A stretch of 38,074 nt of DNA, from assembly GCA_028291365.1 (NCBI GenBank), contig JAQGIE010000104.1, forward strand, positions 1 to 38,074. The letters are read 5' to 3'. This DNA is from Rhodospirillales bacterium. Lineage in GTDB: Bacteria > Pseudomonadota > Alphaproteobacteria > BOG-932 > Roseiterribacteraceae. Of this stretch, positions 11,478-35,583 are shown piece after piece (positions within the stretch are counted from its first letter, which is position 1; every line of letters starts with the position of its first letter). The translations under genes and the position numbers were made by a program. A model generated the notes under the pieces. That model ran no database searches, was not told where the DNA came from, and worked only from the letters and a program-made list of their open reading frames with translations.

Positions 11478-11624
11478 ACCACCAAGACACCAAGAGCCTG
11501 CCCCGGACTTGATCCGGGGACACCAAGAAGCACCAAGCCGCTTCCCGCGCGCGAAGCGCGTACCAGATTCTGCGATGCCGAATTTCAATGCGCGCTGCGC
11601 GCGACGGCTCGGTGTCTTGGTGGT
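11478..11624. mobile_element. Short inverted-repeat element, copy A (MITE-like)
   Basis: ACCACCAAGACACC (11478-11491) is matched by its inverse at 11611-11624. The 147-bp unit has no gene. Inside are the palindrome CCCCGGACTTGATCCGGGG (11501-11519), a 25-bp core at 11529-11553 shared with copies B and C with two mismatches each, and two GCGCGC-type hairpins. CATGA occurs just outside both ends (11470-11474 and 11630-11634), a possible 5-bp target duplication. Removing the insert would put the downstream ATG only six bases after the upstream stop, which fits insertion into a compact operon. Transposition is inferred. Confidence 0.7.
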
Positions 11625-11630
11625 TTCCTC

Positions 11631-12296
11631 ATGAGGCTCGCTCTGTTCGATTGCGACGGCACGCTCGTCGACAGCCAGGGCGCCATCGTCGCCTCCATGG
11701 CGGTGGCGTTCGGCAGTGAAGGGCTGGTTTCGCCCGATCCACATGCGGTGCGCCGCGTCGTCGGCCTGCCGCTCGAAGTCGGCATCGCGCGTCTGGCGCC
11801 GGCGGCGGATGACGCGACCGTGGCACGTCTCGACCAGGCCTATCGCGACGCCTTCTACCGTCTGCGGACCACCGAAGGTTTTCACGAGCCGATGTTCGAC
11901 GGCATCGACGAGGCGGTGGCCGAACTCGACGCCGCCGGCGTGTTGCTGGGAATCGCCACCGGCAAGGCGCGGCGCGGTCTCAACGCGACGCTCGAACGGC
12001 ACGGCCTGCTGCCGCACTTCGTGACCTTGCAGACATCGGACACCGCGCCGGGCAAGCCGCACCCCGGCATGGCGCTGCAGGCGCTGGCCGAAACCGGCGT
12101 CGCAGCGCAAGACGCGGTGATGATCGGCGACACGGTCTATGATGTCGCCATGGCGCGGGCGGCGGGGCTCAAGGCGACGATCGGCGTCGCCTGGGGCTAT
12201 CACGACGCCGACGAGTTGCGCGCGGCAGGGGCTGCGCGCATCGCGGTGACGCCACGCGAATTGCCGGCGCTGGTCGCCGAACTGCTCGAAACCTAG
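11631..12296 (+). CDS. HAD-superfamily phosphatase, phosphoglycolate-phosphatase-like
   Basis: A 221-residue HAD hydrolase. Motif I is LFDCDGTLVDS with nucleophile D7 and general acid D9. The helical cap (about residues 18-85) follows, then motif II LLGIATGK, the lysine region GKPHPGMAL, and motif IV MIGDTVYDVAMARAAG. This pattern is typical of Gph/PGP-like enzymes, but the substrate cannot be read from sequence. The ATG lies at the edge of element A, whose sequence therefore supplies the ribosome-binding region; only a weak GGTGG is seen. The next gene follows nine bases after the stop with its own AGGAGG. Confidence 0.88.
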   Translation: MRLALFDCDGTLVDSQGAIVASMAVAFGSEGLVSPDPHAVRRVVGLPLEVGIARLAPAADDATVARLDQAYRDAFYRLRTTEGFHEPMFDGIDEAVAELDAAGVLLGIATGKARRGLNATLERHGLLPHFVTLQTSDTAPGKPHPGMALQALAETGVAAQDAVMIGDTVYDVAMARAAGLKATIGVAWGYHDADELRAAGAARIAVTPRELPALVAELLET

Positions 12297-12305
12297 GAGG
12301 GCACG

Positions 12306-14345
12306 ATGTCGCCATTCCGTTGGGTGCTGCTCACGGTTGCCGTGATCTTCGTCGCGCTCGTGATCGGCGCCGTCTATGTCGTGCGCGCACTCGACGTCGA
12401 GCGGCTGCGCCCCAAGATCGAAGCGGGCGCCAGCCAAGCGTTGGGCCGCAAAGTCACGCTCGCCGGACCGATCTCGATCGAGCCGTCGCTGACGCCCAGC
12501 GTTGCGGTCACCGACGTGCGCGTCGCCAATCCCGACTGGGCCAAATCGCCCGACATGCTGCGCGCCAAGCGCGTGTCGCTGACGGTCGGTCTGCGCGCGC
12601 TCGCCGATCAGCGGATCGAGGTCAAGTCGGTGAAGATCGACGGCGCCGAGCTGGTGCTCGAACGCGGCGCCGACGGACGCACGAGCTGGGATGGGCTCGG
12701 CCGTGCCGCCAAGGCGAGCAACGACGCCGCTTCGCCCAAAGATGTTCGCGTCGAAGCCAGGCAGGACGCCAAGCTTGATATCGAGTCGGTCGAACTGGTC
12801 AACTCGACCCTGACCTATCGCGTGCCGGGTCGCGAACGCGTGCTGGCGATCAAGCGCGCCACCGCGTCGGCCGCGGTCGGTGCGCCGGTTCATCTCGACG
12901 CCGATACGACGCTCGACGGCAACGCGCTGGGCGTGAAGCTCGCGGGCGGCACGCTCGACGCGCTGCTCCACGACCAGCCCTGGCCGGTGAAGCTCGAACT
13001 GAAACTCGACGGCGCCGGCGCCACGATTGACGGTCGTGCCGACAAGCCGCTGTCGGTACAGGGACTCGGCGGCGCGGTCGCGATCGACGCCGATCGCCTG
13101 TCGCGCTTCGACATGCTCGCGGGCAGCGCTTTGCCTGGCTCCGGACCCGTGTCGCTCTCGGCGCGCATCGCGGCGACCGGACCCGGCACCTACGACGTCG
13201 ATCAGTTGAAGGCGAAGCTCGGCAACAGCGATCTCGCCGGCACGCTCAAGCTCGCGCTGGGCGGCGCCCGTCCGCGCATCGACGGCAAGCTCGATTCCGG
13301 TACGCTGCGCACCGCCGATTTCAGCGCCGCGAAAGCCGCAGCACCGGCAGCGCCTGCAACACCGGCAACGCCCGCGCCAGCCGTGCCTGCAGCGGCACCA
13401 CCAGCGCCGGCGCCGCATGCGTCGCTGATACCGATCGACGGCGAAATCGCGTTGACCGTGAAGAAGCTCGAGGGCGGTTCGCTCGAACTCGGCGACGTCA
13501 CGACCGTGCTGCATCTCGCCGACGGAAGATTGTCGGCGCAGCCGCTGTCGATGAAATTGCCGGGTGGCGCCGCGACCGGGTCGTTCGGCCTGGACGGTCG
13601 TGCTGCGCCGGCCGCCATCGCCATCAAGCTCAAGGCCGACAACATCGCGTATCACCAGTTGCTGCGCGCGCTCGGCGCCAAGCCGCCGGCCGAAGGTAAT
13701 GCCGACCTTGCCGTCGATCTCACCGCGCGTGGCACCGACGCGGCGGCGATCGAACATAGCCTGTCCGGCCGCTTCGATCTGGTCGCGGGGCAGGGGCAGC
13801 TCGCGAACGATTTCGTCGAGCGCTGGGGCGGTCAGGCGATCGTCGCGATGGTGCCTGGCGTGCCCAAGGACGCGGCCCGCCGCCTGACCTGCGCCGTGGT
13901 CGGCGCAAACTTTACCAATGGCGTCGCGCAGCTCGACCGGTTCCTCGCCGACACGGCGGCCGCGACGGTCGCGGCGACGGGCTCGATCGACCTCGCCAAT
14001 GATCGCATCGACCTGCTGCTGAAACCGCGCCCCCACACCAACGCGCTGGAGAAGATCGCGACGCCGGTGCGCGTGTCCGGTCCGTTAAGCGCGCCGTCGG
14101 TGCGGGCCGACGAAGCGGGGCTGGTCGGCACCGCGATGGCGCTGCTCGCCAAACAGAAGAACGCCGTCGCGAGCAGCGTGCCCGAGGTGCAGCCCATCGC
14201 GGGTCAGAACGCATGCGTCGTGGCGCTGGCGCGCGGCCCGGCCGCAAGCCCGCCGCAACCGCAAGCGGCGCCGCAAAGCCCGATCAATCAGGGCAAGCAG
14301 CTGTTGCAGGATCTTGGAAAGTCGCTGTTCGGCGGACGTAAATGA
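12306..14345 (+). CDS. AsmA-family protein
   Basis: A 679-residue protein with one N-terminal membrane helix ([20 protein letters not shown]) and a long periplasmic part of repeating beta-strands, as in AsmA/TamB-like proteins thought to bridge the envelope and move phospholipids. The N-terminal domain has [18 protein letters not shown] and FxVANPDWA-like features ([15 protein letters not shown]). A proline/alanine-rich linker lies near residues 345-373. The C-terminal AsmA domain includes [17 protein letters not shown] and [24 protein letters not shown] at 12295-12300 fixes the ATG. The stop overlaps the next start as ATGA. Confidence 0.88.
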
Positions 14346-15055
14346 AGCGTGTCTGGAACAAGGTCGCGATCGCCGGCGCCGGCGTCACGCTCGACGGGCG
14401 TCCGGTACGCACGCCGGGACGCCGTGCGCTCGAACTGCCGACGCCGTCGCTCACCGACGCGGTCGCGCAGGAATGGGATGCAATGGCGAAAGGCGAGGAC
14501 GTCGATCCGACCGCGATGCCGATGACGCAGCTCGCCTCGACGGCGCTCGATCGCGTTACGCCGCAGCGCGAGGAAATCATCGCCAGCCTGCTGCGCTACG
14601 CCGAAACCGATCTCGTCTGCTATCGCGCCGATGATCCGCCCGAGTTGGCGCAACGCCAGCGCGCCTCATGGCAACCGCTGCTCGACTGGCTCGATCGCCG
14701 CTACGGCGTGCGGCTGCACGTCGCCGAAGGCGTCATTCACGCGCCGCAGGATCCGGCCATGCTCGAACGGCTGACCGACATCGTACGGGGCTTCGACGAT
14801 TGGCGTCTGACGGCATTGCAGGCGGCGGCCGCGGCAACGGGATCGATCGTCGTCGCGCTGGCGCTGGTGGCGGGCCGTATCGGCGCGGCGCAGGCCTTTG
14901 CCGTCGCCGAACTCGACGAGAGTTTCCAGATCGAGCGCTGGGGTGAAGATCCGATCGCGCGCGCGCGCCGCGAAGGCGTTGCGGCCGATCTCGATGCGGC
15001 GCGCCGCTTTCTCGACCTGCTCGGCGACGCACCGTCCGGAATCGGCCGCAGTTAG
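14342..15055 (+). CDS. ATP12-family F1-ATPase assembly chaperone
   Basis: A 237-residue ATP12 homologue. In mitochondria ATP12 binds the F1 alpha subunit and prevents its aggregation; alphaproteobacteria carry the relative. The opening [23 protein letters not shown], read in two parts, the QEWDAM segment, [27 protein letters not shown] and the C-terminal [15 protein letters not shown] are family landmarks. It is the last clear gene of the 9298-15055 run, overlapping the AsmA gene by four bases. The gene supports the alphaproteobacterial assignment. Confidence 0.93.
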
Positions 15056-15077
15056 AGCGCATCGGCCGAATGCTGCG

Positions 15078-15157
15078 CGGCCGCTGCTCAAAAAGCCGTA
15101 CCGACCGAACGAATTGATCGAAACGCTGGAGGCGTTGCTGCCGGCGCCGCGACAAGC
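15078..15157 (+). pseudogene. Possible remnant of a response-regulator receiver domain (C-terminal end)
   Basis: In the frame of 15078 the bases read RPLLKKPYRPNELIETLEAL followed by LPAPRQ. The KP(Y/F)RPxEL pattern followed by a short amphipathic helix is the last part of a CheY-like receiver domain. Nothing upstream in this frame shows the phosphoacceptor half, and the segment starts just after the ATP12 gene. It runs antisense to the end of the minus-strand frame 15088-15483. It may be the stump of a deleted regulator; chance resemblance of about 26 residues is not excluded. Confidence 0.4.
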
Positions 15158-15483
15158 CCCTGGCGTCGCTGCACCACCAGCACGATGGTCCGCGGCGGCG
15201 GGTCGATCGTGACTTGCTCGACCGGCCAACCGTCGCTTTCTTCGCGCAGATGCAGCGCCTCGATCGATGCCGGGGCAGCGCGAAGGGCAAAGCGAACGCG
15301 ATGCGCGAAACCACGCAGCGCCGCGATCACCGTGCAGACTTCATCGTCCCGCGCGGCGACGAACTTCAATTCGGCATAGCCGTCGCATTCGGCTGCGTGC
15401 ACGCAGGCGAGAAGGGCGCCGTAGAAATCCGCGCCCAACTCGTCCGCGTCGGCTGCCGGCGGCCCGGCTACCGACGCCGCCAC
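15088..15483 (-). CDS. Hypothetical protein, third of a small minus-strand group
   Basis: I do not recognise this protein. The frame is open to 15807, but GTG at 15483 (131 residues) is a reasonable start because the bases further upstream code for another gene in a different frame. The middle part, from LGADFYGALLACVHAAECDG to PPPRTIVLVVQRRQGL, shows the GC-rich third codon positions of a real gene. The last 20 or so residues run antisense to the response-regulator-like stretch, so the natural C-terminus may be lost or altered. It overlaps the upstream gene by 16 bases. Confidence 0.4.
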   Translation of the reverse strand: MAASVAGPPAADADELGADFYGALLACVHAAECDGYAELKFVAARDDEVCTVIAALRGFAHRVRFALRAAPASIEALHLREESDGWPVEQVTIDPPPRTIVLVVQRRQGLVAAPAATPPAFRSIRSVGTAF

Positions 15484-15671
15484 GACACCGGCCGCCGCGC
15501 CTGGTCGACCGGCCGGCAGCCCTCCCGCAGAAGGATGTAAAGCGCCGCGCCGAGTGCGATCGCCTGCACGAACGCCCGCGGTGCGTCGGCCTGCGTCATC
15601 GCGATGAGAAACCACAGGGCGCTGCCGATCACGGCGATCGGCAGCGCTGCGCGGGAAAGGCGGACCGACAT
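15468..15671 (-). CDS. Small membrane protein of unknown function
   Basis: A 67-residue product with two hydrophobic stretches, LPIAVIGSALWFLIAM and FVQAIALGAALYILL, separated by a short loop, and a basic arginine-rich C-terminus. It starts two bases after the stop of the 62-residue gene at 15674, which suggests cotranscription. No family is recognised. The ordered hydrophobic layout favours a real gene, but the small size keeps confidence moderate. Confidence 0.55.
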   Translation of the reverse strand: MSVRLSRAALPIAVIGSALWFLIAMTQADAPRAFVQAIALGAALYILLREGCRPVDQARRPVSWRRR

Positions 15672-15673
15672 CG

Positions 15674-15862
15674 TCAGCGTCCCGGCTGCAGCCGGATGCC
15701 GGCGCCCGGATGCCGGTCGACCAGATCACCGGCAAAAGCCAGCGCTGCCTTGCAGCTTTTGAACGAACCGCCAAACAGGCCGCCGTCGAATTCGACGCTC
15801 CACACACCGTTGGTCTGCGCAGTCACCACGATTCGCTCGGCGGATTTATCAAGACGTCCCAT
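15674..15862 (-). CDS. Small hypothetical protein, DUF2188-like
   Basis: A 62-residue protein. The pattern IVVTAQTNGVWSVEFDGGLF, then a region with alternating charges and KSCKAALAFAGDLV, resembles the compact beta-beta-alpha layout of DUF2188-type proteins (a strand pair with a WxV motif, then a helix). The likeness is by eye. The ATG at 15862 has GGAA about five bases upstream. It leads the three-gene minus-strand group and faces away from the porin gene at 16183. Confidence 0.55.
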   Translation of the reverse strand: MGRLDKSAERIVVTAQTNGVWSVEFDGGLFGGSFKSCKAALAFAGDLVDRHPGAGIRLQPGR

Positions 15863-16182
15863 GTGCGTTCCAGTGTTTCGCGGCGCGCTCGCGTCCGGCT
15901 CTCCGAGCCACTTGGACGGGCGCCGCCTTCATCGACAGGACAGAATTTTGATACGACCCGCGCAGGACTCCATGCCGATCGCGTGGCTGCTGCGTTAAGG
16001 CGCCGTAAGGTGACGGCGTGCCCCGCATGGCTGTGTTGCGGCGCGGGCAAAAGCCCGCGCTGCGCCTTGGTTCTTTATGGATTTTTTATGCGGCTCGCAC
16101 CGGCATCGCATGGATCGCTCACCGGCACCGGCCCTCTCTCACGCCGTCGCCGATTTGCGGCGCGCACCGAGTCGAGGATTGC
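15863..16182. other. 320-base intergenic region with a hairpin
   Basis: This divergent region separates the minus-strand small genes from the porin. It holds a perfect hairpin GCGCGGGC-AAAA-GCCCGCGC (16041-16060) and, 13 bases later, an 11-bp-spaced direct repeat listed separately. Open frames here (for example from 16018) only extend the porin frame backwards and show no protein-like features. I see no other gene. Confidence 0.5.
16074..16090 (+). promoter_or_regulatory. TTTATG direct repeat upstream of the porin, candidate KdpE site
   Basis: TTTATG at 16074-16079 is repeated exactly at 16085-16090, an 11-bp period as used by OmpR/PhoB-type regulators, the family of KdpE. A related pair (TTCACG, TTTATG) lies at the same spacing before the kdp operon (17670-17686). 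The site is 92 bases upstream of the porin ATG. Assignment to KdpE is inferred from neighbourhood and spacing. Confidence 0.4.
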
Positions 16183-17658
16183 ATGTCACGCCGTATTTGC
16201 TCCACGCTTCGCCCTGCAGGCTCCGGGTGGCAAGCCCTCCGCAGCTTCAGCGTAGGAGGGCTGTCTGCTGCTGCTCTCCTGGCTGCCTCGAGCGCATACG
16301 CCGCCGACGGCGAGAGCTTTGCCGACCGCTTTGCGCGGATTTACGCCGATCATCTGAACGACAATGTGGAATCGGGCCCCGCGCCCGCCTATCGCGGTGC
16401 GCCGCCGCCGCTGTCGTCGCCGCCATTTCCGTTCACCAATTGGGGAATCGGTGGCACCTCGAACATTGGCTATCCCGACACGACGACGGGCCCGCTGCTG
16501 GAAACGCTGTATGGCGGACCGGGCGGCGACTGGCTGAAGGAAAGCCGCATCAAGATCTATGGCTGGTTGAACGCCGGCGGCAATGTCAGCACCTCGACCA
16601 GCAGCTTCAGCATCTCGAAGGGCATCGGCGGCAACTATCCCGCCGCCTATTCCTATCGCGCCAACCGCGTGCAGTTCGATCAGTTCGCGCTGTTCATCGA
16701 CCGCACGCCCGACACGGTCCAGACCGACCATATCGACTGGGGCTTCCGCCTCGCGAACCTGTACGGCGCCGATTACAAATACACGTTCACGCGCGGGCTC
16801 TTGAGTCAGCAATATCTCAAGAAGGCGCACCCGTACGGGTACGACCCGATGCTGATCTATTTCGACCTCTACATTCCGTATGTCGCCGAGGGGCTGAACA
16901 TTCGCGTCGGCCGCTACTTGTCGGTTCCGGACATCGAGGCGCAGCTCGCGCCCAACAACTACATGTATAGCCACTCGCTGCTGTACTCGTACGATCCGTA
17001 CACGACGACGGGCATCATCGGCTCGTTGCGGCTGACCAAGAACTGGACGGTGCAGCTTGGCTTCTCGGGTGGCCAGGACATCCTGCCGTGGGACATTTCG
17101 AACCGGAAGCCGACCGTCTACGCCTGCGTCAACTGGACCTCGGATAGTGGCAACGACAACATCTATCCCTGCATGAACGGCGTGAACGACGCCAAATACG
17201 CCTACAACAACATGAACCACTGGGTCGTGACCTGGTACCACAAGTTCAACGCCAAGTGGCACATGGCGACCGAAGCCTTCTACATGTACGAGCGCGGCGT
17301 GCCGAGCGTGAACAGCACGCTGCCGACCATCCTCGGCACCAACAGCGCGCAATGCTCGCCGGGCAAGGACCGCTGCTTCGTGTCGGAGTCGGCGATCGTG
17401 AACTACCTGAACTATCAGGTCGGCGAGAAAGACTTTCTCAGCTTCCGCAACGAGCTGGTCTACGACAAGCGCGGCCAGCGCACCTTGTACAAGACGCTCT
17501 ATTCGTCGCACACGCTGGGCTGGAATCACTGGATCGGTGACGTCATCACCTTGCGCCCCGAGCTGCGCTACGAGCGCTCCTACCAGCAGCGCGCCTATGA
17601 TTTCGGCAGGCGAAAAGAACAGCTGATGCTGGCGGGCGACATCATCGTCCATTTCTGA
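16183..17658 (+). CDS. Outer-membrane beta-barrel porin (BBP2-like) beside kdp
   Basis: A 491-residue secreted beta-barrel. The chosen ATG has GAGG upstream and gives a signal peptide with a basic start, a hydrophobic core (GGLSAAALLAASSAYA) and cleavage before ADGES. The mature part opens IKIYGWLNAGGNVSTSTSS and continues with aromatic, alternating strands such as MLIYFDLYIPYVAEGLNIRV and RVGRYLSVPDIEAQ, in the manner of the BBP2/OmpL-like porins. It ends in a terminal phenylalanine (IIVHF), a normal outer-membrane insertion signal. Directly upstream of the kdp operon on the same strand, it may give potassium entry across the outer membrane; this is inference. Confidence 0.82.
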   Translation: MSRRICSTLRPAGSGWQALRSFSVGGLSAAALLAASSAYAADGESFADRFARIYADHLNDNVESGPAPAYRGAPPPLSSPPFPFTNWGIGGTSNIGYPDTTTGPLLETLYGGPGGDWLKESRIKIYGWLNAGGNVSTSTSSFSISKGIGGNYPAAYSYRANRVQFDQFALFIDRTPDTVQTDHIDWGFRLANLYGADYKYTFTRGLLSQQYLKKAHPYGYDPMLIYFDLYIPYVAEGLNIRVGRYLSVPDIEAQLAPNNYMYSHSLLYSYDPYTTTGIIGSLRLTKNWTVQLGFSGGQDILPWDISNRKPTVYACVNWTSDSGNDNIYPCMNGVNDAKYAYNNMNHWVVTWYHKFNAKWHMATEAFYMYERGVPSVNSTLPTILGTNSAQCSPGKDRCFVSESAIVNYLNYQVGEKDFLSFRNELVYDKRGQRTLYKTLYSSHTLGWNHWIGDVITLRPELRYERSYQQRAYDFGRRKEQLMLAGDIIVHF

Positions 17659-17669
17659 GCCGCCGCATC

Positions 17670-17686
17670 TTCACGCGATCTTTATG
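17670..17686 (+). promoter_or_regulatory. Candidate KdpE site upstream of the kdp operon
   Basis: TTCACG (17670-17675) and TTTATG (17681-17686) are 11 bp apart, matching in spacing and second half-site the repeat in front of the porin. GCCGCC-type flanks on either side can pair around it as an imperfect hairpin just after the porin stop. It is about 65 bases before the first small gene of the kdp operon. Confidence 0.4.
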
Positions 17687-17749
17687 CACGGCGGCCAGAT
17701 GCGACCTCGCTCGCTCATGCCGCCGCCGCACATGAATGTGCAGGAGAAC

Positions 17750-17836
17750 ATGATGCTGGACCTATTGAGCGCCGGGCTTGTCGCCGTTTTCGTGGCAGCG
17801 GCGCTGGCCTATGTCGCGCTGTGCGAACGGATCTGA
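17750..17836 (+). CDS. 28-residue membrane peptide upstream of kdpF
   Basis: A tiny gene too short for usual calling. It encodes MMLDLLSAGLVAVFVAAALA followed by YVALCERI: one hydrophobic helix and a short charged end. AGGAGA (17742-17747) lies just before the two adjacent ATGs (17750, 17753). It ends four bases before kdpF, so it is probably translated as part of the kdp transcript. The layout is like KdpF, but the CER ending differs from the RPERF end of true KdpF. I recall similar small frames ending in (C)(E/D)R(L/I) in front of kdpF elsewhere; this should be checked. Confidence 0.6.
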   Translation: MMLDLLSAGLVAVFVAAALAYVALCERI

Positions 17837-17839
17837 CGG

Positions 17840-17929
17840 ATGTCGTTCGACTATATCCTCGCCGGCGGCGTCAGCGTCGCCCTCGTTGCCTATCTCATCT
17901 ATGCGCTGATCCGGCCGGAGCGGTTCTGA
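17840..17929 (+). CDS. kdpF: Potassium-transporting ATPase subunit KdpF
   Basis: A 29-residue single-helix peptide, [20 protein letters not shown] followed by YALIRPERF. The YLxYALxRPERF ending is the KdpF signature. KdpF binds and stabilises the KdpABC complex in the membrane. The ribosome-binding site is poor, and the start is four bases after the preceding small gene, so translation is probably coupled. The stop is one base before the kdpA ATG. Confidence 0.85.
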
Positions 17930-19667: not shown

Positions 19668-19842
19668 ACCACCAAGACACCAAGGACGCCAAGGTGCACC
19701 AAGGCAATTCCCTGGCGCGCGCAGCGCGTAACAATCCTGCAACGGCGCAGGATCGGGTGCGCGCTACGCGCGCGGGAACCAGCTTGGTGCTTCTTCGTGT
19801 CCCCGGATCAAGTCCGGGGCAGGCTCTTGGTGTCTTGGTGGT
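19668..19842. mobile_element. Short inverted-repeat element, copy B (MITE-like), between kdpA and kdpB
   Basis: ACCACCAAGACACCAAG (19668-19684) is matched by its perfect inverse at 19826-19842. The 175-bp unit lies in the opposite orientation to copies A and C and has no gene. It holds the palindrome CCCCGGATCAAGTCCGGGG (19801-19819) and the shared 25-bp core on the minus strand (19767-19791). Its left end matches the gene-start end of copy C over 37 bases with one mismatch. CATAA occurs at 19664-19668 and 19848-19852, a possible target duplication. It splits the kdpA-kdpB junction, leaving kdpB its own AAAGGA. Confidence 0.72.
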
Positions 19843-27164: not shown

Positions 27165-29788
27165 GCCGACAGTTCCTGTTGCACGGTGCGGATCCGGCTG
27201 CCGCGTTGAATCAGCGTCTCGATGGTGCGCGCCAGCAGCTCGTTGGATGTGTGTGACTTGACCAAAGCTGCGGTCACGGCGCGGGAAATGTCGCGCGGCA
27301 TCTCGTCGGCCGAGAAGATGATGACCGGCGTCGACTCAGTGCCGCCATTCAGCAGCGGCAGCAATTCCAGCCCCGACCCGTCCCGCAGCGTGATGTCGAG
27401 CAGGACCAGGTCGTAGCGATTTGCCAGCAGCAGCGCCTTGGCCTCAGTGACGCTGGTGGCGCTGACCATGTCGGCGATGTCGCGCAGCACGACCGAGGTG
27501 ACGCGCAGAATGTCGAGATCGTCTTCGACGTGCAGGATGCGCGGCTGGCGTTCGGCTCCGAGGGTGGCGCGCCGAATGCTTTCGATCAGCCTGGGCTGGT
27601 CGATCGGCTTCTGGATCCAGTCGACGATGCCGACCACGTCGCCATTGAGCTCGTCGGCGCGCTCGGTCGCGGTGATCGACACCACGACGATCGGAATTGG
27701 CGGCCCGGTTTCGCGCGTGCGGATTTCGCGGATCAACGAGATGCCATCCTGATCGGGCAGCGCCAGATCCAGCGTCATCGCCGCGTAGCTGTACCGTTCC
27801 AGCATCGACTTGGCCTGGCTCGCCGTGCGCGCGACGTCGGCTTCGTAGCCGCCCTGCAGCAGCATCATGCGCAGCAGCGTCGCGACGTCGGCATCGTCTT
27901 CGCAGATCAGCACGCGCGGGCCGGTGGAAAGCTGCTCTGCCGCCGTCGGCGCCGTGATCGCTGCGGACAAAGCGGGCAGGGTGAAAGTGAACACCGTGCC
28001 CGCCGGCGACGTGGTAAAGCCGATCGTGCCGCCATGCCGCTCGACAATGCTCTTGGCGATCGAGAGGCCGAGGCCGGTGCCACCTTTCTGGCGCGCGTCG
28101 GAGGCATCGGCCTGGGCGAACTTGTCGAAGATGCGGTTCTGGAACTCGTGCGGGATGCCGGGGCCGCGATCGCGGACTTCGAAGCGGATCGTTTCACCCG
28201 CCTCGATCAGCGCCAGTTCGACCGCAGCGCCCGCAGGCGAGTACTTGATGGCGTTCGACAGAAGATTGGCCAGCACCTGCTGCAGCCGGTCGCCGTCGCC
28301 ATAGACTTTCCCGGTTGCGCTGCCGGCCACCAGCTCGACCGTGACTCCGTAACGTTCGGCGTAGCCGCGATTGGCGTCGGCCGCCTGCCGCGCGAGTTCA
28401 CCGACGTCGAGTTGCCGGAAGTCGAAGGCGATGTGGCCGGATTCGATCTTCTCCATGTCGAGAATGTCGTTGATCAGCCGCACCAGCCGTCGCGCGTTGT
28501 TCTGCGCGATGGTGAGCATGGTGCGGGCTTCGGTCGGGATTTCGCCGGTGACGTTACCGAGCACCAGTTCGAGCGAGCCGTTGATCGAGGTCAGCGGCGT
28601 GCGCAACTCGTGGCTGACGGTCGAGACGAATTCGTTCTTGAGCTGATCGATCCGCTTGCGCTCGGTGACATCGCGCATGATGCAGATCACGATCGGCCTT
28701 CCGTCGTCATGCACCGCGCGCTGCATCGTGATCTCGACCGGAAGGGTGGTCCCGTCGGGCCGCCGGATGGTCATTTCGCGCGGCCGGTGGCCGGGGTCGG
28801 CCAGCTGCTCGCGCACGATGACGTAGAGATGATCTTCGGTCTCGGCGAAGAAGCCGCTCGCCTTGCGTCCCGTCATCCCGGCGGCGTCGCGGCCGAAGGC
28901 GAAGGCGGCGCTCGGATTCACCTCCTGCACCATGCCGGCGCCGTCGACCGTCATGATTCCGTCGGCGGCGTTGTTGAAAATGGCGCGCGACTGGCTTTCG
29001 CGCTGTTCAAGGGCACGGCGCTGCTTCTGTACCGTGTCGGCCATGGCGTTGAACGATGTCGCGAGGTCGCTGATCTCGTCATTGCCGCGCATCGCGACGC
29101 GCTGGTCGAGTTCGCCTTGGCCGAACCGCTCGGCCGCCCGGCTCAGCTTGCCGAGGCGCCGCGTCAGCGTGCGCTGCAGGAAGAAGGCGCCGAGGGCTCC
29201 AATGACGACAATGCAGCCGATGATGCCCCAGAGAACGCGGTTTGCGGTCTGCGTCTGGCTTGCGAGCCGTGCCTCTTCGATGGTGCGGAACAGGCGCTCG
29301 CCGGTGACCAGCTCGTCGATCGCATTGTGCAGCCGTGTCATCTGCGGCGCCGCTTGGTCCCGCACCACGTCGCGCGCGGCCTCGAACCCGGCATTGCGGC
29401 GCGTTTCGACCGCACGCGTCGATTGCGCCAGCGCGAGCCCCAACAGATCGCGCACGTTCGCCAACCGCGCCGGTTGCTGCGCCGCCGGCGAGTTGAGTCG
29501 TTCCAGCTCCGCCAGATCGTCCCGGACCCGCTCGATCGCCTCGCGATACGTCGCAAGGTACGAATCGTCGCCGGTGATGACGAGGCCGCGCTGCGCGTCT
29601 TCGGTGGTGAGCAGATTGGTGCGGAAGGACGCGATCGCCCGCACGAAGTTTTCCGAGCGTTCCCGGTCGCTGGTCGCGCCGCGAGTCAGCATGTTGAAAG
29701 CAATGGCGATGGCAAAGATCAGCAGGAGCATGCCGATGAAGAAGGCATAGCCCAGCCACAATTTGCGGCCGATCGTGAAGCGCGGCAT
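27161..29788 (-). CDS. Hybrid histidine kinase: CHASE3-HAMP-PAS-HK-REC-REC
   Basis: An 875-residue membrane sensor. Order: TM1 (about 11-33), CHASE3-like sensor (about 40-180, with GLVITGDDSYLATYR), TM2 (about 186-205), HAMP (206-258), PAS (260-378), HisKA with H393 (STVSHELRTPLTSI), ATPase domain (NAIKYSPAG, DRGPGIP, GTGLGLSIAKS), then two receivers with phosphoacceptors D674 (MTLDLALPDQDG) and D798 (LLDITLRDGSG). CHASE3 domains sense unknown signals outside the inner membrane. Two receivers on the kinase plus a third encoded next door suggest a multi-step relay. The histidine phosphotransfer protein is not seen here. Confidence 0.93.
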   Translation of the reverse strand: MPRFTIGRKLWLGYAFFIGMLLLIFAIAIAFNMLTRGATSDRERSENFVRAIASFRTNLLTTEDAQRGLVITGDDSYLATYREAIERVRDDLAELERLNSPAAQQPARLANVRDLLGLALAQSTRAVETRRNAGFEAARDVVRDQAAPQMTRLHNAIDELVTGERLFRTIEEARLASQTQTANRVLWGIIGCIVVIGALGAFFLQRTLTRRLGKLSRAAERFGQGELDQRVAMRGNDEISDLATSFNAMADTVQKQRRALEQRESQSRAIFNNAADGIMTVDGAGMVQEVNPSAAFAFGRDAAGMTGRKASGFFAETEDHLYVIVREQLADPGHRPREMTIRRPDGTTLPVEITMQRAVHDDGRPIVICIMRDVTERKRIDQLKNEFVSTVSHELRTPLTSINGSLELVLGNVTGEIPTEARTMLTIAQNNARRLVRLINDILDMEKIESGHIAFDFRQLDVGELARQAADANRGYAERYGVTVELVAGSATGKVYGDGDRLQQVLANLLSNAIKYSPAGAAVELALIEAGETIRFEVRDRGPGIPHEFQNRIFDKFAQADASDARQKGGTGLGLSIAKSIVERHGGTIGFTTSPAGTVFTFTLPALSAAITAPTAAEQLSTGPRVLICEDDADVATLLRMMLLQGGYEADVARTASQAKSMLERYSYAAMTLDLALPDQDGISLIREIRTRETGPPIPIVVVSITATERADELNGDVVGIVDWIQKPIDQPRLIESIRRATLGAERQPRILHVEDDLDILRVTSVVLRDIADMVSATSVTEAKALLLANRYDLVLLDITLRDGSGLELLPLLNGGTESTPVIIFSADEMPRDISRAVTAALVKSHTSNELLARTIETLIQRGSRIRTVQQELSA

Positions 29789-29877
29789 CTGTTCTGGACT
29801 CCCGCGAGGTCTCTGTATTTCGCGGCGAGAGCCTGACGTGTGTGACGGAACTTCGCAACTCGCCCGTGCAGGGCGAT

Positions 29878-30411
29878 TCAGCCTGGCGTCTGGAGAATGA
29901 ACGCCTTGGCCTCGTCGAGCAGGCGCTTGGGATCGCCCGAACAGCCGAAATTCATGTCACTTTCACTGACGGTGCGCGGCTTGCGCCCGTCCGCACCGGT
30001 CCACGTCTTTACGATCGCGTTACCATCATTGTGGCCCAGACACACGCCGACGACACCGTGCTTGCGGTCGATCAGCACCGCGTAATTCTCGCTCGGACAG
30101 GCGTGGCGGCGGCAACCTTGGACGAGAAAGAAATCGCCGTCCCGCGCCACCGGCGACACGGTCGTCCAGCGCGTGCGCATCTTGGCCAACGGCGCCGCAC
30201 CGACCAGCTTCGTGACGCCTTGGGCGAAGCCGCGCTGCGTCAGCAGGGTGGTGGCGCCGACCTTCTCGGTCGGCGCCTTGTCCTGCCAGCGTTCGATCGT
30301 ATCCGGCCATGCGCCGGCCCGGACTTGATCCGGGCTGTGGGCCGGTGCCGCTGCCAGCAGCAGCGGCATGACCAGCAGCAGCGCAGCGAGACGAATCAGA
30401 AGCGGGTCCAT
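29878..30411 (-). CDS. Secreted protein, possibly Ivy-like, of unknown function
   Basis: A 177-residue protein with a signal peptide ([20 protein letters not shown]) and a cysteine-bearing core, FFLVQGCRRHACPSENYAVL. The CxxHxC pattern followed by strands recalls Ivy-type lysozyme inhibitors (CKPHxC), but overall similarity cannot be confirmed. A palindromic repeat, CCCGGACTTGATCCGGG, is read in-frame just after the signal peptide as part of HSPDQVRAGAWP. ATG at 30411 overlaps the stop of the upstream mutase gene by one base (TGATG), which suggests coupling. The longer open frame to 30552 shadows that gene. Confidence 0.6.
   Translation of the reverse strand: MDPLLIRLAALLLVMPLLLAAAPAHSPDQVRAGAWPDTIERWQDKAPTEKVGATTLLTQRGFAQGVTKLVGAAPLAKMRTRWTTVSPVARDGDFFLVQGCRRHACPSENYAVLIDRKHGVVGVCLGHNDGNAIVKTWTGADGRKPRTVSESDMNFGCSGDPKRLLDEAKAFILQTPG
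30318..30334. repeat. Palindromic repeat inside a coding region
   Basis: CCCGGACTTGATCCGGG, two six-base arms around CTTGA, the same sequence as in element copies A (11501-11519) and B (19801-19819). Here it is in-frame in the secreted protein gene 29878-30411, between the signal peptide and the mature core. It shows the palindrome can occur outside the larger elements. Confidence 0.65.
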
Positions 30412-31790
30412 CAGAAGGTGGTGGGCGCCTCGATGCCGCTTTGTTTCAATTGTGCAACCAGAAGCTTCTTCAACCGGCCCAGCCCTTCTTCGCTCGACGC
30501 TTCGGCGCGCGCCACCAGCACGTCCTGCGTGTTCGAAGCGCGCAGCAGCCACCAGCCGTCCGGCGTCTTCACGCGCACGCCGTCAATGTCGTTGACTTCG
30601 ATGCCGTCGGGCGACGCGGTAAGGCGCTGCTTCACTTCTTTGACGACGTCGAACTTGCGGCTCTCATCGACCTGGAAGCGGGTCTCGGGCGTATTGAATA
30701 CTTTGGGCAGCTTGTCGACGAGGTCGGCGAGCTGCTTGCCCGACTTCGACACCAGCGACAGCAGGCGCACGCCGCAATAGAGCGCGTCGTCGAAGCCGTA
30801 CCATTTGTCGCCGAAGAAGATGTGCCCCGACATTTCGCCCGCCAGCGGCGCGCCGGTCTCGGCCATCTTCGCCTTGAGCAGCGAATGGCCGGTCTTCCAC
30901 ATCACCGGCTGACCGCCGAGGCGCGCGATCTCGTCGAACAGGACCTGGCTCGCCTTGACGTCGGCGATGATCATCGCGCCGGGATGCGTGGCGAGCACTT
31001 CGCCCGCATAGATTGCCAGCAGCTGGTCGCCCCACACGACGCGGCCCTTGCCGTCGATGGCGCCGATGCGGTCGCCGTCGCCGTCGAATCCGATGCCGAG
31101 ATCGGCGCCCTTCGCCGCGACAACGCGCTTCAGGTCGACGAGATTTTCTTCGACCGTCGGATCGGGATGGTGATTGGGGAACGTGCCGTCGATATCGTCG
31201 AACAGCAGCGTGTGCGTGCCCGGCAGCTTCCTGGTCAGCCGGCGCAGAATTTCGCCGCTGGCACCGTTGCCCGCGTCCCACACGACGTTGAGATTCTTCG
31301 GGCCCTCATAGTCCTTCAGCAGGCGCTCGACATACACGTCCTGAATGTCGAGGTCTTCGATCGCGCCCTGGCCGGTCGCGTACTTGCCGCTTGACGCGAC
31401 CTTGCCCAGCGACAGGATCGCTTCGCCATACACGGGGCCCGTGTAGAGCGTCATCTTGAAGCCGTTATAGTCGGGCGGGTTGTGGCTGCCGGTCACCATG
31501 ACGCCGGCGTCGGCCTGCAGATGCTTGACCGCGAAATACAGCATCGGCGTCGGGCCCAGCCCGACGCGTTTGACGTTCACGCCGGTCGACAGCAGGCCCT
31601 CGGCAAGCGCCGCAGCGAGCGACGGCGACGACAGGCGTCCGTCGTATCCGAGACAGATCGTCTTGCCCGCCCCGCCGACCATGGTGCCGAACGCGCGACC
31701 GATCGCGGCGGCGTCTTTGACCGACAGCGTCTTGTCGACGATTCCGCGAATGTCGTACTCGCGAAGAACGGTGGAATGAAATTCGTGCAT
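30411..31790 (-). CDS. Phosphomannomutase/phosphoglucomutase
   Basis: A 459-residue alpha-D-phosphohexomutase that interconverts hexose 1- and 6-phosphates (mannose and/or glucose), supplying precursors for nucleotide sugars. Motifs: REYDIRG at the start, the phosphoserine loop [14 protein letters not shown] with S102, the metal site [10 protein letters not shown] (D236, D238, D240), the sugar-binding loop GEMSGHIFF, and the phosphate-binding end RASNTQD. The GEMSGH loop is typical of bifunctional PMM/PGM enzymes. It lies 45 bases after ugd on the same strand and near galU, which fits synthesis of glucose 1-phosphate for UDP-glucose and UDP-glucuronate. Confidence 0.94.
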
Positions 31791-31800
31791 GGTCCTAATT

Positions 31801-31884
31801 CCCCGCGAAAGCGGGGATCCATTCTTGTTTGTGAGTTATTTTACGACGCGAAGCGCGGCTGCATGGGTCCCCGCTTTTGCGGGG
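31801..31884. repeat. Two-arm palindromic repeat over the ugd 3' end
   Basis: Left arm 31801-31822 (core CCCCGCGAAAGCGGGG) and right arm 31863-31884 (core CCCCGCTTTTGCGGGG) are inverted with two mismatches around a 40-base centre. Each arm also folds alone. The ugd stop (31836-31838) is in the centre, so the repeat codes for the last residues of ugd, including PAKAGTH. The layout is like that of the unit at 3610-3681, but the sequence is diverged. Confidence 0.75.
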
Positions 31885-33197
31885 AGCGATACGGCGGGGC
31901 GGCCGATCGAGCGATAGTCGAAGCCCGCCTGCGCCATGTCGGCGAGGTTGTAGATGTTGCGCAGATCGACCAGCACGGGCTGGTTCATCAGCTGCGCCAC
32001 GCGCGGCAGCTGCAGCGCACGGAACTCGTTCCACTCGGTCAGGATGGCGGCGACGTCGGCGCCTTCCACCGCCTTGTACGCGTCGTCGACCCATTCGACG
32101 CCGGGCAGCAGCTTTTCCGCTTCGTGCATGCCGGCGGGATCGAAGGCGCGCACGCGCGCGCCGGCCGCCTGCAGCGCCGGAATGATGTCGAGCGCCGGTG
32201 CGTCGCGCATGTCGTCGGTGTTGGGCTTGAAGGTGACGCCGAGAATGCCGACCACCTTGCCGGCCAGGTTGCCACCGCCCGCTTCGATGATGCGTTCGGC
32301 CATGGCGCGCTTGCGCTTGTCGTTGATGTCGACGACGGCGGCGACGATGCGGACCGGGCTGCCGTAATCCTCGGCCGTGCGCACCAGCGCGATCGTGTCC
32401 TTGGGAAAGCACGAACCACCGTAGCCGGGACCGGCATGCAGGAACTTGCGTCCGATGCGGCCGTCGAGGCCGATGCCCCGCGCCACGTCATGCACGTCGG
32501 CGCCGACCTTTTCGCACAGATCGGCGATCTCGTTGATAAAGGTGATCTTGGTCGCGAGGAACGCGTTGGCCGCGTACTTGATCAGCTCGGCCGCTTCGAG
32601 CGTGGTGAAGACGATCGGCGTCTCGATCAGATAGAGCGGCCGGTAGAGCCGCCGCATCACTTCCTTGGCGCGGTCGCTCTGGCAGCCGATCACGACGCGA
32701 TCGGGCCGCATGAAGTCGGTGATGGCGGCGCCTTCGCGCAGGAATTCGGGGTTCGAACAGACGTCGAAATCGGCGTCGGGCCGTTCGGCGCGCACGATGC
32801 GCTCGATCTCGCGCGCGGTACCGACCGGCACCGTGCTCTTGGTCACGATCACCGTGTAGCCGGTCAGGTTGCGCGCGATGTCTTTCGCCGCGGCATAGAC
32901 ATAGCTGAGATCGGCGTGACCGTCGCCGCGGCGCGACGGCGTGCCCACCGCGATGAACACCGCCGCCGCGCCGGCCACGGCGGTGGCGATGTCGGTGGTG
33001 AAGGTGAGGCGGGCGGCCTTGGCGTTCTTGGCCACCAGATCGTCGAGCCCGGGCTCGTAGATCGGAATCTCGCCATTCTTCAGACGGTCGATCTTGCCCT
33101 GGTCAAGATCGACGCAGGTGGTCTCGGTGCCGAATTCAGAAAAGCAGGCACCCGAAACGAGGCCGACATAGCCGGTGCCGATGACGGCGATGCGCAT
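31836..33197 (-). CDS. ugd: UDP-glucose 6-dehydrogenase
   Basis: Oxidises UDP-glucose to UDP-glucuronate with NAD+, for envelope polysaccharides. The 453-residue product has the Rossmann start MRIAVIGTGYVGLVSGACFS, the KSTVPVGT segment, the catalytic-cysteine loop GYGGSCFPKDT, and the C-terminal domain with FDPAGMHEAEKL and LTEWNEFRAL. The last residues, after DYRSIGRP, come from the palindromic repeat at 31801-31884 and look like an added tail. The order galU-ugd-mutase on one strand suggests a nucleotide-sugar group. Confidence 0.95.
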   Translation of the reverse strand: MRIAVIGTGYVGLVSGACFSEFGTETTCVDLDQGKIDRLKNGEIPIYEPGLDDLVAKNAKAARLTFTTDIATAVAGAAAVFIAVGTPSRRGDGHADLSYVYAAAKDIARNLTGYTVIVTKSTVPVGTAREIERIVRAERPDADFDVCSNPEFLREGAAITDFMRPDRVVIGCQSDRAKEVMRRLYRPLYLIETPIVFTTLEAAELIKYAANAFLATKITFINEIADLCEKVGADVHDVARGIGLDGRIGRKFLHAGPGYGGSCFPKDTIALVRTAEDYGSPVRIVAAVVDINDKRKRAMAERIIEAGGGNLAGKVVGILGVTFKPNTDDMRDAPALDIIPALQAAGARVRAFDPAGMHEAEKLLPGVEWVDDAYKAVEGADVAAILTEWNEFRALQLPRVAQLMNQPVLVDLRNIYNLADMAQAGFDYRSIGRPAVSLPAKAGTHAAALRVVK

Positions 33198-33270
33198 GGC
33201 GCTTTCTCCGCTAGAGCGTTTTGCGGCCAGCTAGATGGCGCTGCCGTACAAAACGCGACCTAAGATGAGG

Positions 33271-33297
33271 AGGTCACGATCCGACGGATCGTGACCT
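33271..33297. repeat. 27-bp palindrome across the galU stop
   Basis: AGGTCACGATCCG (33271-33283) and its exact reverse complement (33285-33297) are separated by one A. The galU stop (33296-33298, minus strand) lies in it. The centre GATCCG-A-CGGATC resembles the terminator at 8710-8736. It probably acts at the 3' end of the galU message, but it lacks a clear T tract. Confidence 0.65.
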
Positions 33298-34180
33298 AAA
33301 GAAGTTGCTTCAGGCACGCGCGAAGCTTGTCCGCCATCTCGGGCCGCTTCAACGCGAACGCGATGTTGGCCTCGAGGAAGCCAATCTTGTCGCCGCAATC
33401 GAACGTCTGCCCGTCGAACTTGTATCCGTGGAAAGGCTGCTTCCCGACGAGGCGCAGCATTGCGTCCGTCAGTTGGATCTCGCCGCCGGCGCCGGCTTCC
33501 TGCCGATCGAGATGCTCGAACACCTCGCCCTGGAGAATATAGCGGCCGGTTACCGAGAGGTTCGACGGCGCTTCTTCGGGCTTGGGCTTTTCGACCAGCC
33601 CCAGCACTTCGACGGCGCGGCCCCAGGGGCCAGTCGCTTCCTTGCCGGGTTTGAGGATGCCGTAGCGGTTGGTGTGTTCGCGCGGCACTTCGTTGACCGC
33701 GATCACGTTGCCGCCCAGCTCGTCATAGGCTTCGATCATCTGCGCCAGACAGGGCTTGTCGGACAGCACGACGACGTCGGGCAGCAGCACCGCGAACGGC
33801 TCCCTGCCGATCACGTGACGGGCGCACCACACGGCGTGGCCGAGGCCCAGCGGCGCGTGCTGGCGGGTGAAATAAAGATGGCCCGAGCCGATTTCGGTGT
33901 CGGCGAGCATCGCCAGCTCGGCCGTCTTGCCGCGGCGCTGGAGGTTCTCGGTCAGCTCGGGGTGCAGGTCGAAATGGTCTTCCAGCACGTCCTTGCCGCG
34001 CGAAGTGACGAAGACGAATTCCTCGATCCCGGCGGCGCGCGCCTCTTCGACCGCGTTCTGGATCAGCGGCTTGTCGACCAGGGGCAACATCTCCTTGGGC
34101 ATCGCCTTGGTGGCGGGCAGGAAACGTGTGCCGAGGCCGGCAACGGGAAAGACGGCCTTGCGGACGGGCGGAAACTTCAT
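33296..34180 (-). CDS. galU: UTP-glucose-1-phosphate uridylyltransferase
   Basis: GalU joins UTP and glucose 1-phosphate to UDP-glucose, the substrate of Ugd. The 294-residue product starts MKFPPVRKAVFPVAGLGTRF followed by LPATKAMPKEMLPLVDKPL, the nucleotidyltransferase signature. Later motifs are FVFVTSRGK, VLLPDVVVLSDKPC and GYKFDGQTFDCGDKIG. ATG at 34180 fits the family; the longer frame to 34234 has no support. It starts 13 bases after the mipZ stop, so galU may be cotranscribed with mipZ. Confidence 0.95.
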   Translation of the reverse strand: MKFPPVRKAVFPVAGLGTRFLPATKAMPKEMLPLVDKPLIQNAVEEARAAGIEEFVFVTSRGKDVLEDHFDLHPELTENLQRRGKTAELAMLADTEIGSGHLYFTRQHAPLGLGHAVWCARHVIGREPFAVLLPDVVVLSDKPCLAQMIEAYDELGGNVIAVNEVPREHTNRYGILKPGKEATGPWGRAVEVLGLVEKPKPEEAPSNLSVTGRYILQGEVFEHLDRQEAGAGGEIQLTDAMLRLVGKQPFHGYKFDGQTFDCGDKIGFLEANIAFALKRPEMADKLRACLKQLL

Positions 34181-34193
34181 GGGAAACCTGTAT

Positions 34194-35042
34194 TTATGGG
34201 CGCGGTTGTGCCACCGGGGTCGGGCTCCGCACAAGCACGCTTCGGGGCGCCGGGGCGGCCAGGATCGCGTCGATCAACGCCCGGACCTCCTGGCGTGCGG
34301 CGACATGGCTCAAGGTCATGGAGTGGCCGGTCTCTGAACCGAGGTCGAGCAGGGTAAGGCCCTTGAGGAAGAGTTCGCGGAAAATGACGCGTTCGCCGAA
34401 GCCCGGCGCCAGGCGAAAGCCGATCCGCTTCGCGAGCGCGGCCAGAATGTCGCCGATGACGCGTTTGTTCCGGCCTTCCACGTGTCCCATGCGATTGCGC
34501 ATCACGATCCAGTCGATGGTTTGCCCATCGGCCAACGCGCGCCGCTTGCGCTGTTCCCACACCATTTCGCTGTAAAGCGACGGGCCCACGATGCGGTGCG
34601 TGTCGGGCTCGATGCGCGCCAGCAGGTCGAGATCGACGAAGCTGTCATTGATCGGCGTCACCAGCACGTCGGCGCGCGCATGGGCCAGCCGGGTCAGGTT
34701 GGAATCCGAACCGGGCGTGTCGAGCACGATGAATTCGTAGCTGCCGAAACGGCCGATCGCGGCCTCGAGCCGGCTGCGTTCGTCTTCGTTCGCGTCGGCG
34801 ACGACGGGCAGGTCGCTGCGCGTGACGGCGGCGGTGGGCGGCGTCGGCAGCGCAGCGTCGCGGCCTGCGAGATAGCGCGACAGCGATCCTTGGCGCGCAT
34901 CGAGATCGAGCGCGGCGACCCGCTTGCCGGCGCGTGCAAGCCCGACCGCGACATGCACCGCGGCCGTCGATTTGCCCGAGCCGCCTTTCTCGTTTCCGAA
35001 AACGATCAGGCGCGGGCGGCTGGCAGTGGAGGAGGCATTCAC
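34194..35042 (-). CDS. mipZ: Division-plane positioning ATPase MipZ
   Basis: MipZ is a ParA/MinD-type ATPase that forms a gradient from the chromosome origin and blocks FtsZ-ring assembly away from midcell in alphaproteobacteria. The 282-residue product has the deviant Walker A GNEKGGSGKST, the LDLDARQGS switch, FIVLDTPGSDSNL, and the MipZ-specific end ALAKRIGFRLAPGFGERVIF and RELFLKGLTLLDLG. GTG at 35042 (MNASSTASRPRLIVFGNEKG) is the best start. It lies on the edge of element C, and the frame stays open into the element to an ATG at 35102, which would add a hydrophobic leader. Confidence 0.92.
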   Translation of the reverse strand: MNASSTASRPRLIVFGNEKGGSGKSTAAVHVAVGLARAGKRVAALDLDARQGSLSRYLAGRDAALPTPPTAAVTRSDLPVVADANEDERSRLEAAIGRFGSYEFIVLDTPGSDSNLTRLAHARADVLVTPINDSFVDLDLLARIEPDTHRIVGPSLYSEMVWEQRKRRALADGQTIDWIVMRNRMGHVEGRNKRVIGDILAALAKRIGFRLAPGFGERVIFRELFLKGLTLLDLGSETGHSMTLSHVAARQEVRALIDAILAAPAPRSVLVRSPTPVAQPRP

Positions 35043-35583
35043 CACCAAGACACCAAGGACACCAAGGAGCACCAAGATGCTTCCCGCGCGCGGAGCGCGC
35101 ACTCCATCCTGCAGAAATCCCGATTTTGTTGCGCGCTTCGCGCGCTTGTATGCACCAAAGTCACAGCACGAAACGGCGAATGCCGTCCTTCAACAGGGGA
35201 ACGTTGAAGTTGATCAACAAGCCGAGACGCAATCCTGACAGCCGAAGATAGGTCAACACCTGGGCCTGGTGGACCGGCAAAAGCGCTTGAATTGCTTTCG
35301 CTTCGACCACGACCGCTTCTTCGACGACGAGATCCAGCCGTAACGCATTTGGGATGCTTCGTCCCTGATACGTGACGGCGAGCGCCTTCTGCTGCTCGAA
35401 CCGGAGCCCCCGATCCTCCAACTCGAAACCGAGACATTGCCCGTACACCGATTCGAGCAGTCCTGGACCAAACGCTTTGTGGACTGCGAGTGCGGCGTCT
35501 ACGACTTCCTTGGCAATCGCATCGACCCTGGGTCCGGGCCCAGTTTCCTTGGTGCACCTTGGTGTCCTTGGTGTCTTGGTGGT
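35041..35583. mobile_element. Inverted-repeat element, copy C, carrying a GxxExxY gene
   Basis: A 543-bp unit bounded by a perfect 27-bp inverted repeat (35041-35067 and 35557-35583) that opens ACCACCAAGACACC. It contains one minus-strand GxxExxY gene (35161 to 35592 open frame) and, at the 3' side of the gene, the 25-bp core (35068-35092) and GCGCGC-type hairpins shared with copies A and B. It lies between terC and mipZ and abuts the mipZ start. No clear target duplication is seen. This is the only copy here that could encode a protein. Confidence 0.72.
35161..35448 (-). CDS. GxxExxY-family PD-(D/E)XK nuclease-like protein
   Basis: From GTG 35448 the product has 95 residues: MYGQCLGFELEDRGLRFEQQ, a catalytic-type stretch LRLDLVVEEAVVVEAKAI (D-x9-E-x-K), then HQAQVLTYLRLSGLRLGLLI and FNVPLLKDGIRRFVL. 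This is the GxxExxY family, classed with PD-(D/E)XK nucleases. The frame stays open upstream to 35592 and encodes the missing family N-terminus, including HKAFGPGLLESVYGQ with the G-x-x-E-x-x-Y motif itself (G at 35461-35463). No ATG, GTG or TTG lies in that part, so either an unusual start (for example ATT at 35517) is used or the gene is decaying. The terminal repeat encodes TTKTPRTPRCTKE. Confidence 0.8.
   Translation of the reverse strand: MYGQCLGFELEDRGLRFEQQKALAVTYQGRSIPNALRLDLVVEEAVVVEAKAIQALLPVHQAQVLTYLRLSGLRLGLLINFNVPLLKDGIRRFVL

Follow-up and report, generated by a model that had tools for sequence, protein, structure and literature searches.

Three short elements bounded by inverted repeats lie in a stretch of DNA from a Rhodospirillales bacterium, and just one of them contains a gene, for a protein of the GxxExxY family. 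Have such elements moved within the genome, and does the only protein that they encode have a part in it? The question is raised by contig JAQGIE010000104.1 of assembly GCA_028291365.1, analysed here over 38,074 nt (the window); the source genome, G000, is a 4.37-Mb assembly in 271 contigs. A first-pass annotation, made from the letters of the window, had described the three elements (A, B and C) as a mobile family. We found the mobility of the family to be well supported, and the iterons, the short repeats of which the ends are built, change in concert within an element. The reading that we favour, and regard as fairly probable, is that the elements form a compact mobile family with iteron arrays as ends and GxxExxY as the sole protein, a nuclease acting both in cis and in trans.

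The elements of the window and their relatives in the genome

All three elements were found where the first-pass annotation had placed them. Copy A (positions 11478-11624, forward strand; 147 bp) lies between a RluA-family pseudouridine synthase gene and a HAD hydrolase gene, copy B (19668-19842, reverse strand; 175 bp) between kdpA and kdpB, and the full-length copy C (35041-35583, reverse strand; 543 bp) between a mipZ-like and a terC-like gene. The sequence ACCACCAAGACACC starts both ends of A, B and C, in agreement with the terminal inverted repeats proposed for them. Each end reads ACC and then CACCAAG units of about 9 bp, spaced by 1-2 bases, and the opposite end is its reverse complement; C has four clean units per end (35041-35076, forward strand, and 35548-35583, reverse strand, the two arrays being 97% complementary), A and B have fewer. 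A repeat search matched the two ends of C over 36 nt (97%), the arms of A and B in inverted orientation over 97 nt (93%), those of B and C, also inverted, over 56 nt (88%), and those of A and C directly over 56 nt (84%). A and C therefore lie the same way round and B is flipped, the mixed orientation that had been noticed. The GCGCGC-type hairpins were also present: with 12 bp of flank on each, A folded as DNA with a z-score of -7.8 and B folded as RNA with a z-score of -9.8. No Rfam family matched the window at the gathering threshold. The GxxExxY open frame, which runs from stop to stop at 35161-35592 on the reverse strand with the conserved domain at 35167-35517, was confirmed in C alone; A and B are gene-less.

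A and B had been regarded as derivatives of C, resembling miniature inverted-repeat transposable elements (MITEs). They are indeed gene-less with their ends kept, but A, B and an element on contig C67 share a GC-rich palindromic insertion of 24-25 nt between iterons 2 and 3, which is absent from C (11496-11519, forward strand, within the left array of A; 19801-19824, reverse strand, in B). This points to descent of A and B from a gene-less line, not directly from C; they are unlikely to be mere gene-deleted versions of copy C, and the shared insertion suggests that the gene-less line has itself multiplied. The palindrome CCCGGACTTGATCCGGG, which interrupts A and B, also stands alone at 30318-30334 of the window.

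The family had been counted as three copies. It is real and dispersed, but the count was too low: the 17-mer ACCACCAAGACACCAAG, with at most one mismatch, occurred 32 times in G000, compared with 0 occurrences of the backwards pattern. These matches fall into 19 places. Two of them, with which contigs C252 and C254 begin, have the same sequence as the tails of two others located at contig ends and may duplicate them, so that the family has 17-19 elements, among which only C carries a gene. The complete elements are mostly 106-208 bp long; that on contig C255 is truncated where the contig stops, and that on contig C80 lacks most of its right array. A broader array pattern found 56 arrays in G000 against 5 for the backwards control, with three main unit types, CACCAAG, CACAGAG/CGCAGAG and CGCCAAG. 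Two GxxExxY genes were found in this genome, one within the CACCAAG arrays of copy C and the other on contig C159. On contigs C32, C39, C67 and C252 (loci L029, L031, L035 and L025), some elements are nested in a larger repeat starting near TAGGGTCCGTACTCAATTG. In contigs C32 and C39 this repeat closes with a closely similar sequence in inverted form, and it represents a second inverted-repeat family of G000.

Occupied and empty sites in related genomes

The first-pass annotation had allowed for a static repeat, held at the same places in all relatives. We sought ten G000 elements in a single congener (G001), namely A, B, C and seven others for which the joined flanks served as query; the elements on contigs C80 and C255 and the copies nested in the larger repeat were left out. 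Eight of the nine sites that could be located were empty in G001: those of A, B and C and of the elements on contigs C66, C94, C149, C216 and C252, the last being empty though 37 bases on each side of the junction do not align. The ninth, on contig C176, corresponds to about 1 kb of other sequence, and for the element on contig C69 no ortholog of the site was found in G001. Reciprocally, an element separates kdpB from kdpC in G001, whereas 19 bp lie between these genes in the window. Taken together, the empty sites and this G001-specific element indicate movement (or loss) of the family at individual sites after the two genomes diverged. In G002, a genome of the sister genus, kdpA and kdpB are likewise not separated by an array, so element B is most simply a gain. 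The claim of mobility thus withstood the test that could have refuted it, and is well supported.

The arrays of G001 (n = 30) start with CGCCAAG (16) or CACCACG (14), and none with CACCAAG or CACAGAG. G001 has two GxxExxY genes, one inside a 543-bp element that is related to copy C and built of CACCACG units, and one beside a CGCCAAG element.

The occupied sites exceed the empty ones by about 10-40 bp beyond the ACC...GGT limits, so the true ends probably lie slightly further out. Pooled flanks were informative to about 11 bp outside ACC, being A-rich at -10 to -7 and having TTC or TGA adjoining ACC. The exact ends were not fixed, since the flanks in G001 are only 77-93% identical. Three degenerate patterns over the viral-contig elements gave no exact empty sites in phage populations, and 20 stretches of genome G128 (195 kb), in which near-identical copies were sought, gave 11 arrays too dissimilar to define the ends.

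These comparisons bear on the possibility of a nuclease-palindrome system that was dispersed long ago, is now immobile, and has been adapted by the host for repair, transcription termination or defence. Such a system would explain the purifying selection on the gene (the ratio of nonsynonymous to synonymous substitution rates, dN/dS, is about 0.1 for copy C versus the two G001 copies, with dS near saturation). It would also fit the hairpins between operon genes, which could affect transcripts, and the keeping of the gene between fabD and fabG in four loci (L235, L237, L238 and L264), from Sphingomonas parapaucimobilis and three genomes of family f6, apparently Sphingomonadaceae to judge from flanks in common with S. 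parapaucimobilis. However, eight of nine located sites are empty in the congener, the array types differ between G000 and G001, and the distribution is patchy, with arrays in 74 of the 398 genomes described below. We consider a solely host-adapted system rather unlikely.

Pairing of the gene with iteron arrays

One scan of genome contigs with five proteins gave the 80 best loci among at least 581 relatives. They span 12 named phyla: Pseudomonadota, Verrucomicrobiota, Myxococcota, Thermodesulfobacteriota, Chloroflexota, Cyanobacteriota, Acidobacteriota, Planctomycetota, Bacteroidota, Ignavibacteriota, Cloacimonadota and the archaeal Methanobacteriota. Arrays were defined as the unit C[AG]CN[AG]AG occurring every 8-10 bp, twice, and windows displaced by 1.5 kb within these loci served as shifted controls. 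An inverted pair flanked the gene in 51 of the 80 loci and an array was present on at least one side in 73, compared with 0 and 8, respectively, of 137 shifted windows; the backwards pattern gave a pair in 5 and an array on at least one side in 11 of the 80 loci, and outward-facing pairs were found in 12. Strict inverted pairs occurred in 10 of the 12 phyla (none in Thermodesulfobacteriota, with two loci, or Cloacimonadota, with one) and in one of the two archaeal loci. Neither array nor pair was detected in 7 of the 80 loci, some of which have variant units, such as CACGACG in L106. Scored without any motif against 277 shifted controls, the flanking inverted repeats exceeded the 95th percentile at 61 of the 80 loci and the highest control value at 30. 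In six loci (L096, L160, L172, L105, L141 and L156) each flank forms a palindrome of its own, about 80-140 bp long, the gene standing between two gene-less elements.

From end to end, gene-bearing elements are mostly 420-550 bp and gene-less ones mostly 60-200 bp long, and 43 of the 46 long elements hold GxxExxY; the other three contain two open reading frames (ORFs), with no Pfam match. The gene was found in 4 of 72,556 public plasmid records, with arrays beside it in all four as judged by eye; one of these, from S. parapaucimobilis, has the gene between fabD and fabG. A search of GenBank phages with protein P0002 gave no GxxExxY match, and IMG/VR yielded a single locus with the gene, together with 57 stretches that matched one form of the strict array. 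Viral contigs contain gene-less iteron elements (L274, L278, L309, L283 and L320), sometimes several of them, and these often lie immediately upstream of a start codon. In L161 (684-1219), adjoining a GxxExxY locus, arrays surround a different ORF, which is about 150-165 aa long, contains a PD...EAK-like nuclease motif and has no Pfam match.

The association was also measured in 398 genomes of one phylum, using a strict three-unit array and a score cut-off for the gene. Strict arrays were found in 74 genomes (about 1,690 matches, at most 177 per genome; 6 for the backwards pattern) and the gene in 64. Both were present in 49 genomes, the array only in 25, the gene only in 15 and neither in 309, which corresponds to an odds ratio of 40 (p about 1e-30). 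Family f39, with 74 genomes sampled, accounts for 44 of the 49 genomes with both; the association holds within it (p = 2e-5) and outside it (p = 4e-4). The 15 gene-only genomes have 16 gene loci, 12 of which have flanking inverted repeats missed by the strict pattern; these are built of the usual unit in 11 loci and of a CACGGACG-like unit in L245. Six same-strand array matches at G247:C1:3238627-3239262, 105-126 bp apart, look like a tandem repeat and probably lie outside the element family.

Could the elements be ordinary MITEs, moved by a conventional transposase encoded elsewhere, with GxxExxY as a passenger or accessory? They are small, mostly gene-less, dispersed in mixed orientation and bounded by terminal inverted repeats; non-autonomous elements of such shape rely on the transposase of another element, as PMC3116915 describes, and GxxExxY has a nuclease fold, with no known transposase chemistry. 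However, a passenger leaves unexplained why the same small gene occurs with such ends across many phyla and why the iteron type tracks the GxxExxY tree (see below). The gene-bearing partner encodes only a small nuclease, and no transposase was recognised between the paired ends of the 46 long elements, a genome-wide transposase search not having been made. An autonomous partner with matching ends was not seen among the G000 elements, in an assembly whose 271 contigs break at repeats, and target-site duplications were not seen either, neither having been exhaustively sought. In our view, ordinary MITEs are an unlikely explanation.

Concerted change of iterons

In a set of 128 elements, the left and right units agreed at the three variable positions with frequencies of 0.89, 0.75 and 0.89, versus 0.57, 0.44 and 0.53 after shuffling (0 of 2000 shuffles); the elements of this set are not independent, since several loci come from one genome and the viral loci were fetched by one unit type. 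In three genomes with mixed types (G286, G252 and G176), agreement at position 2 was 0.94-1.0 within arrays versus 0.48-0.62 between arrays, and such agreement within but not between the arrays of one genome shows that base composition is not the cause. At the fabD-fabG site of S. parapaucimobilis and the three f6 genomes, the arms vary from species to species, but the two arms of a locus remain alike. The iterons of an element change in concert.

Unit type also follows the protein. Translation of 142 loci gave 131 proteins for a tree, after motif-less, short and duplicate sequences had been dropped, and clear labels were available for 96, 73 and 90 of them. The unit type tracked the tree with repeated switches, requiring 16, 17 and 15 changes versus about 30, 24 and 30 when shuffled (0 of 300 shuffles were as low).

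The GxxExxY protein

The copy C product is a clear member of the GxxExxY/PDDEXK_3 family, which is named by its motif only, scoring 143.8 bits against TIGR04256 (cut-off 35) and 139.2 bits against PF13366 (cut-off 22); the gene is about 370 bp in size. In 39 aligned proteins including that of copy C, residues G41, E44 and Y47 of the GxxExxY motif and H35, D84, E94xK96 and Q108 are invariant and Y112 nearly so, giving copy C both the family motif and the PD-(D/E)XK residues. Q-x-x-x-Y is a RecB-family motif, and the invariant residues fit a RecB/Cas4-type active site. A structure model built from the 39 proteins had a mean predicted local distance difference test (pLDDT) score of 92. Its closest solved fold was SSO0001, a Cas4 protein (Z 9.7 over 100 residues, root mean square deviation 4.3), followed at Z 6-8 by restriction enzymes, Hjc, exonucleases and AddAB, matches that may mean only the common fold; the best Foldseek E-value was 1.1e-3. 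A sequence-profile search of the PDB returned nothing to E 1, and PHROGs and PADLOC gave weak matches only, Cas4 among them (E 0.02-0.03). From the model and the conserved residues, we predict that the copy C product is a minimal Cas4/RecB-like PD-(D/E)XK nuclease.

Membership of the Cas4 family itself was considered and set aside. Four cysteines bind an iron-sulphur cluster in Cas4, according to PMC4176176, whereas no cysteine is invariant in the 39 proteins, C50 alone coming close. Mobile elements with Cas4-like genes are described in PMC5704561. In contrast to those elements and to casposons, copy C leaves no space for a Cas1 integrase or any other gene, and its similarity to Cas4 in sequence is weak.

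The fold also bears on a system of the REPIN/RAYT type, or another HUH/Y1 system, in which a RAYT would move the palindromes as single strands and GxxExxY would only resolve hairpins. The layout is the same as the one given for REPIN/RAYT in PMC3116915: inverted pairs that fold to a hairpin, many small gene-less copies with few gene copies alongside, and repeat types tied to gene copies. However, the gene at the arrays encodes a PD-(D/E)XK nuclease of TIGR04256/PF13366 and not a Y1/HUH transposase, no search of these genomes for RAYT genes having been made, and the ends consist of arrayed 8-10-bp iterons, in most cases with ACC outermost, whereas a REP (repetitive extragenic palindrome) is a single palindrome. 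We regard such a system as improbable.

An initiation codon was sought in the 134 motif-bearing loci among the 142 translated: 106 have an ATG 12-45 codons upstream, 22 have only GTG or TTG, and 6 have none. In several loci the frame crosses the inner array, so that the iterons themselves encode residues such as TKTPR or TETQR.

Observations that weigh against the proposed role of GxxExxY

A number of results count against the reading in which GxxExxY elements are mobilised by their own nuclease. The direction of change can be read at site B only, and the other empty sites could partly reflect losses in G001. No target-site duplication was detected in the 128 elements, whose ends are known only approximately, since no length or offset stood out. 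The occurrence of the gene at the same fabD-fabG site in four loci implies that some copies are long-settled. Copy C has no ATG, GTG or TTG between the upstream stop and the domain and may itself be silent, and the second G000 gene, on contig C159, has arrays on its 5' side only, in the form of a 67-bp palindrome of CACAGAG units.

The coupling of gene and arrays is likewise incomplete. The figure of 43 in 46 long elements is biased, as the loci were mostly fetched by the gene; among 36 viral-contig elements fetched by the array alone, two exceeded 230 bp and neither contained GxxExxY. No array was found near the gene in 4 of the 16 loci from gene-only genomes or in L250, whose genome has arrays elsewhere. 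No gene was found in 25 of the 74 array-bearing genomes, one of them with 139 arrays, many of these assemblies being incomplete. The concert test gave no signal within the 12 elements of G000, nearly all of which are of one type, and position 5 varies too little in G286 for the comparison. Gene type and array type were compared within six of the 12 genomes searched, G285 being left out for its one-sided array and G116, G216, G222, G025 and G148 for lack of listed places. Gene-flanking arrays were excluded in five of the six, and for G176 27 of 29 places were listed. The other arrays were of the gene's type in 11 of 11 cases in G315 (one of which flanks the gene), 16 of 16 in G017 and 14 of 25 in G176, versus 11 of 36 in G286, 2 of 17 in G252 and 0 of 13 in G100. 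The mean match was 0.50 versus 0.25, and 48 of 720 permutations were as good, so the matching of gene type to array type within genomes is suggestive only.

A model of movement and its meaning

On balance, we infer that the GxxExxY nuclease is the agent of movement. An element end comprises two to four iterons of about 8-10 bp, typically ACC followed by CRCNRAG units 1-3 bp apart, and since the two ends are inverted, a single strand is predicted to fold to one long hairpin. In the mechanism that we propose, GxxExxY would recognise the iteron arrays of its own copy and, in trans, those of gene-less copies, and would cut at the array ends, probably as hairpin or cruciform DNA. Host replication and repair would then copy the element to new, often intergenic sites, leaving no detectable target-site duplication. 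Such a system would parallel REPINs and their RAYT in organisation while using an unrelated enzyme. The concerted change of iterons could arise if, after cutting, one array served as the template that restores the other.

The open-access literature, to which the search was confined (subscription journals and preprints being outside its scope), contained neither a function of GxxExxY nor a link to flanking iterons, and the iteron array strings were not found in it; PMC8934634 mentions GxxExxY in passing. We hold with moderate confidence that the element class is new. The broader proposition stands, in our estimate, at about an even chance: that these elements represent a widespread, undescribed class of transposable elements in many bacterial phyla and in archaea, in which a Cas4/RecB-like nuclease of about 120 residues recognises the arrays at both ends and spreads gene-less copies in trans, while transposition or repair keeps the iterons alike.

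If this is true, a protein family named for its motif and present in 64 of 398 genomes of one phylum would gain a function, and intergenic palindromes that reach 177 strict arrays per genome would gain a cause. A lone restriction-like nuclease would join the known transposition chemistries as a driver of movement, and repeat and enzyme would seem to evolve together through the concerted change of short units.

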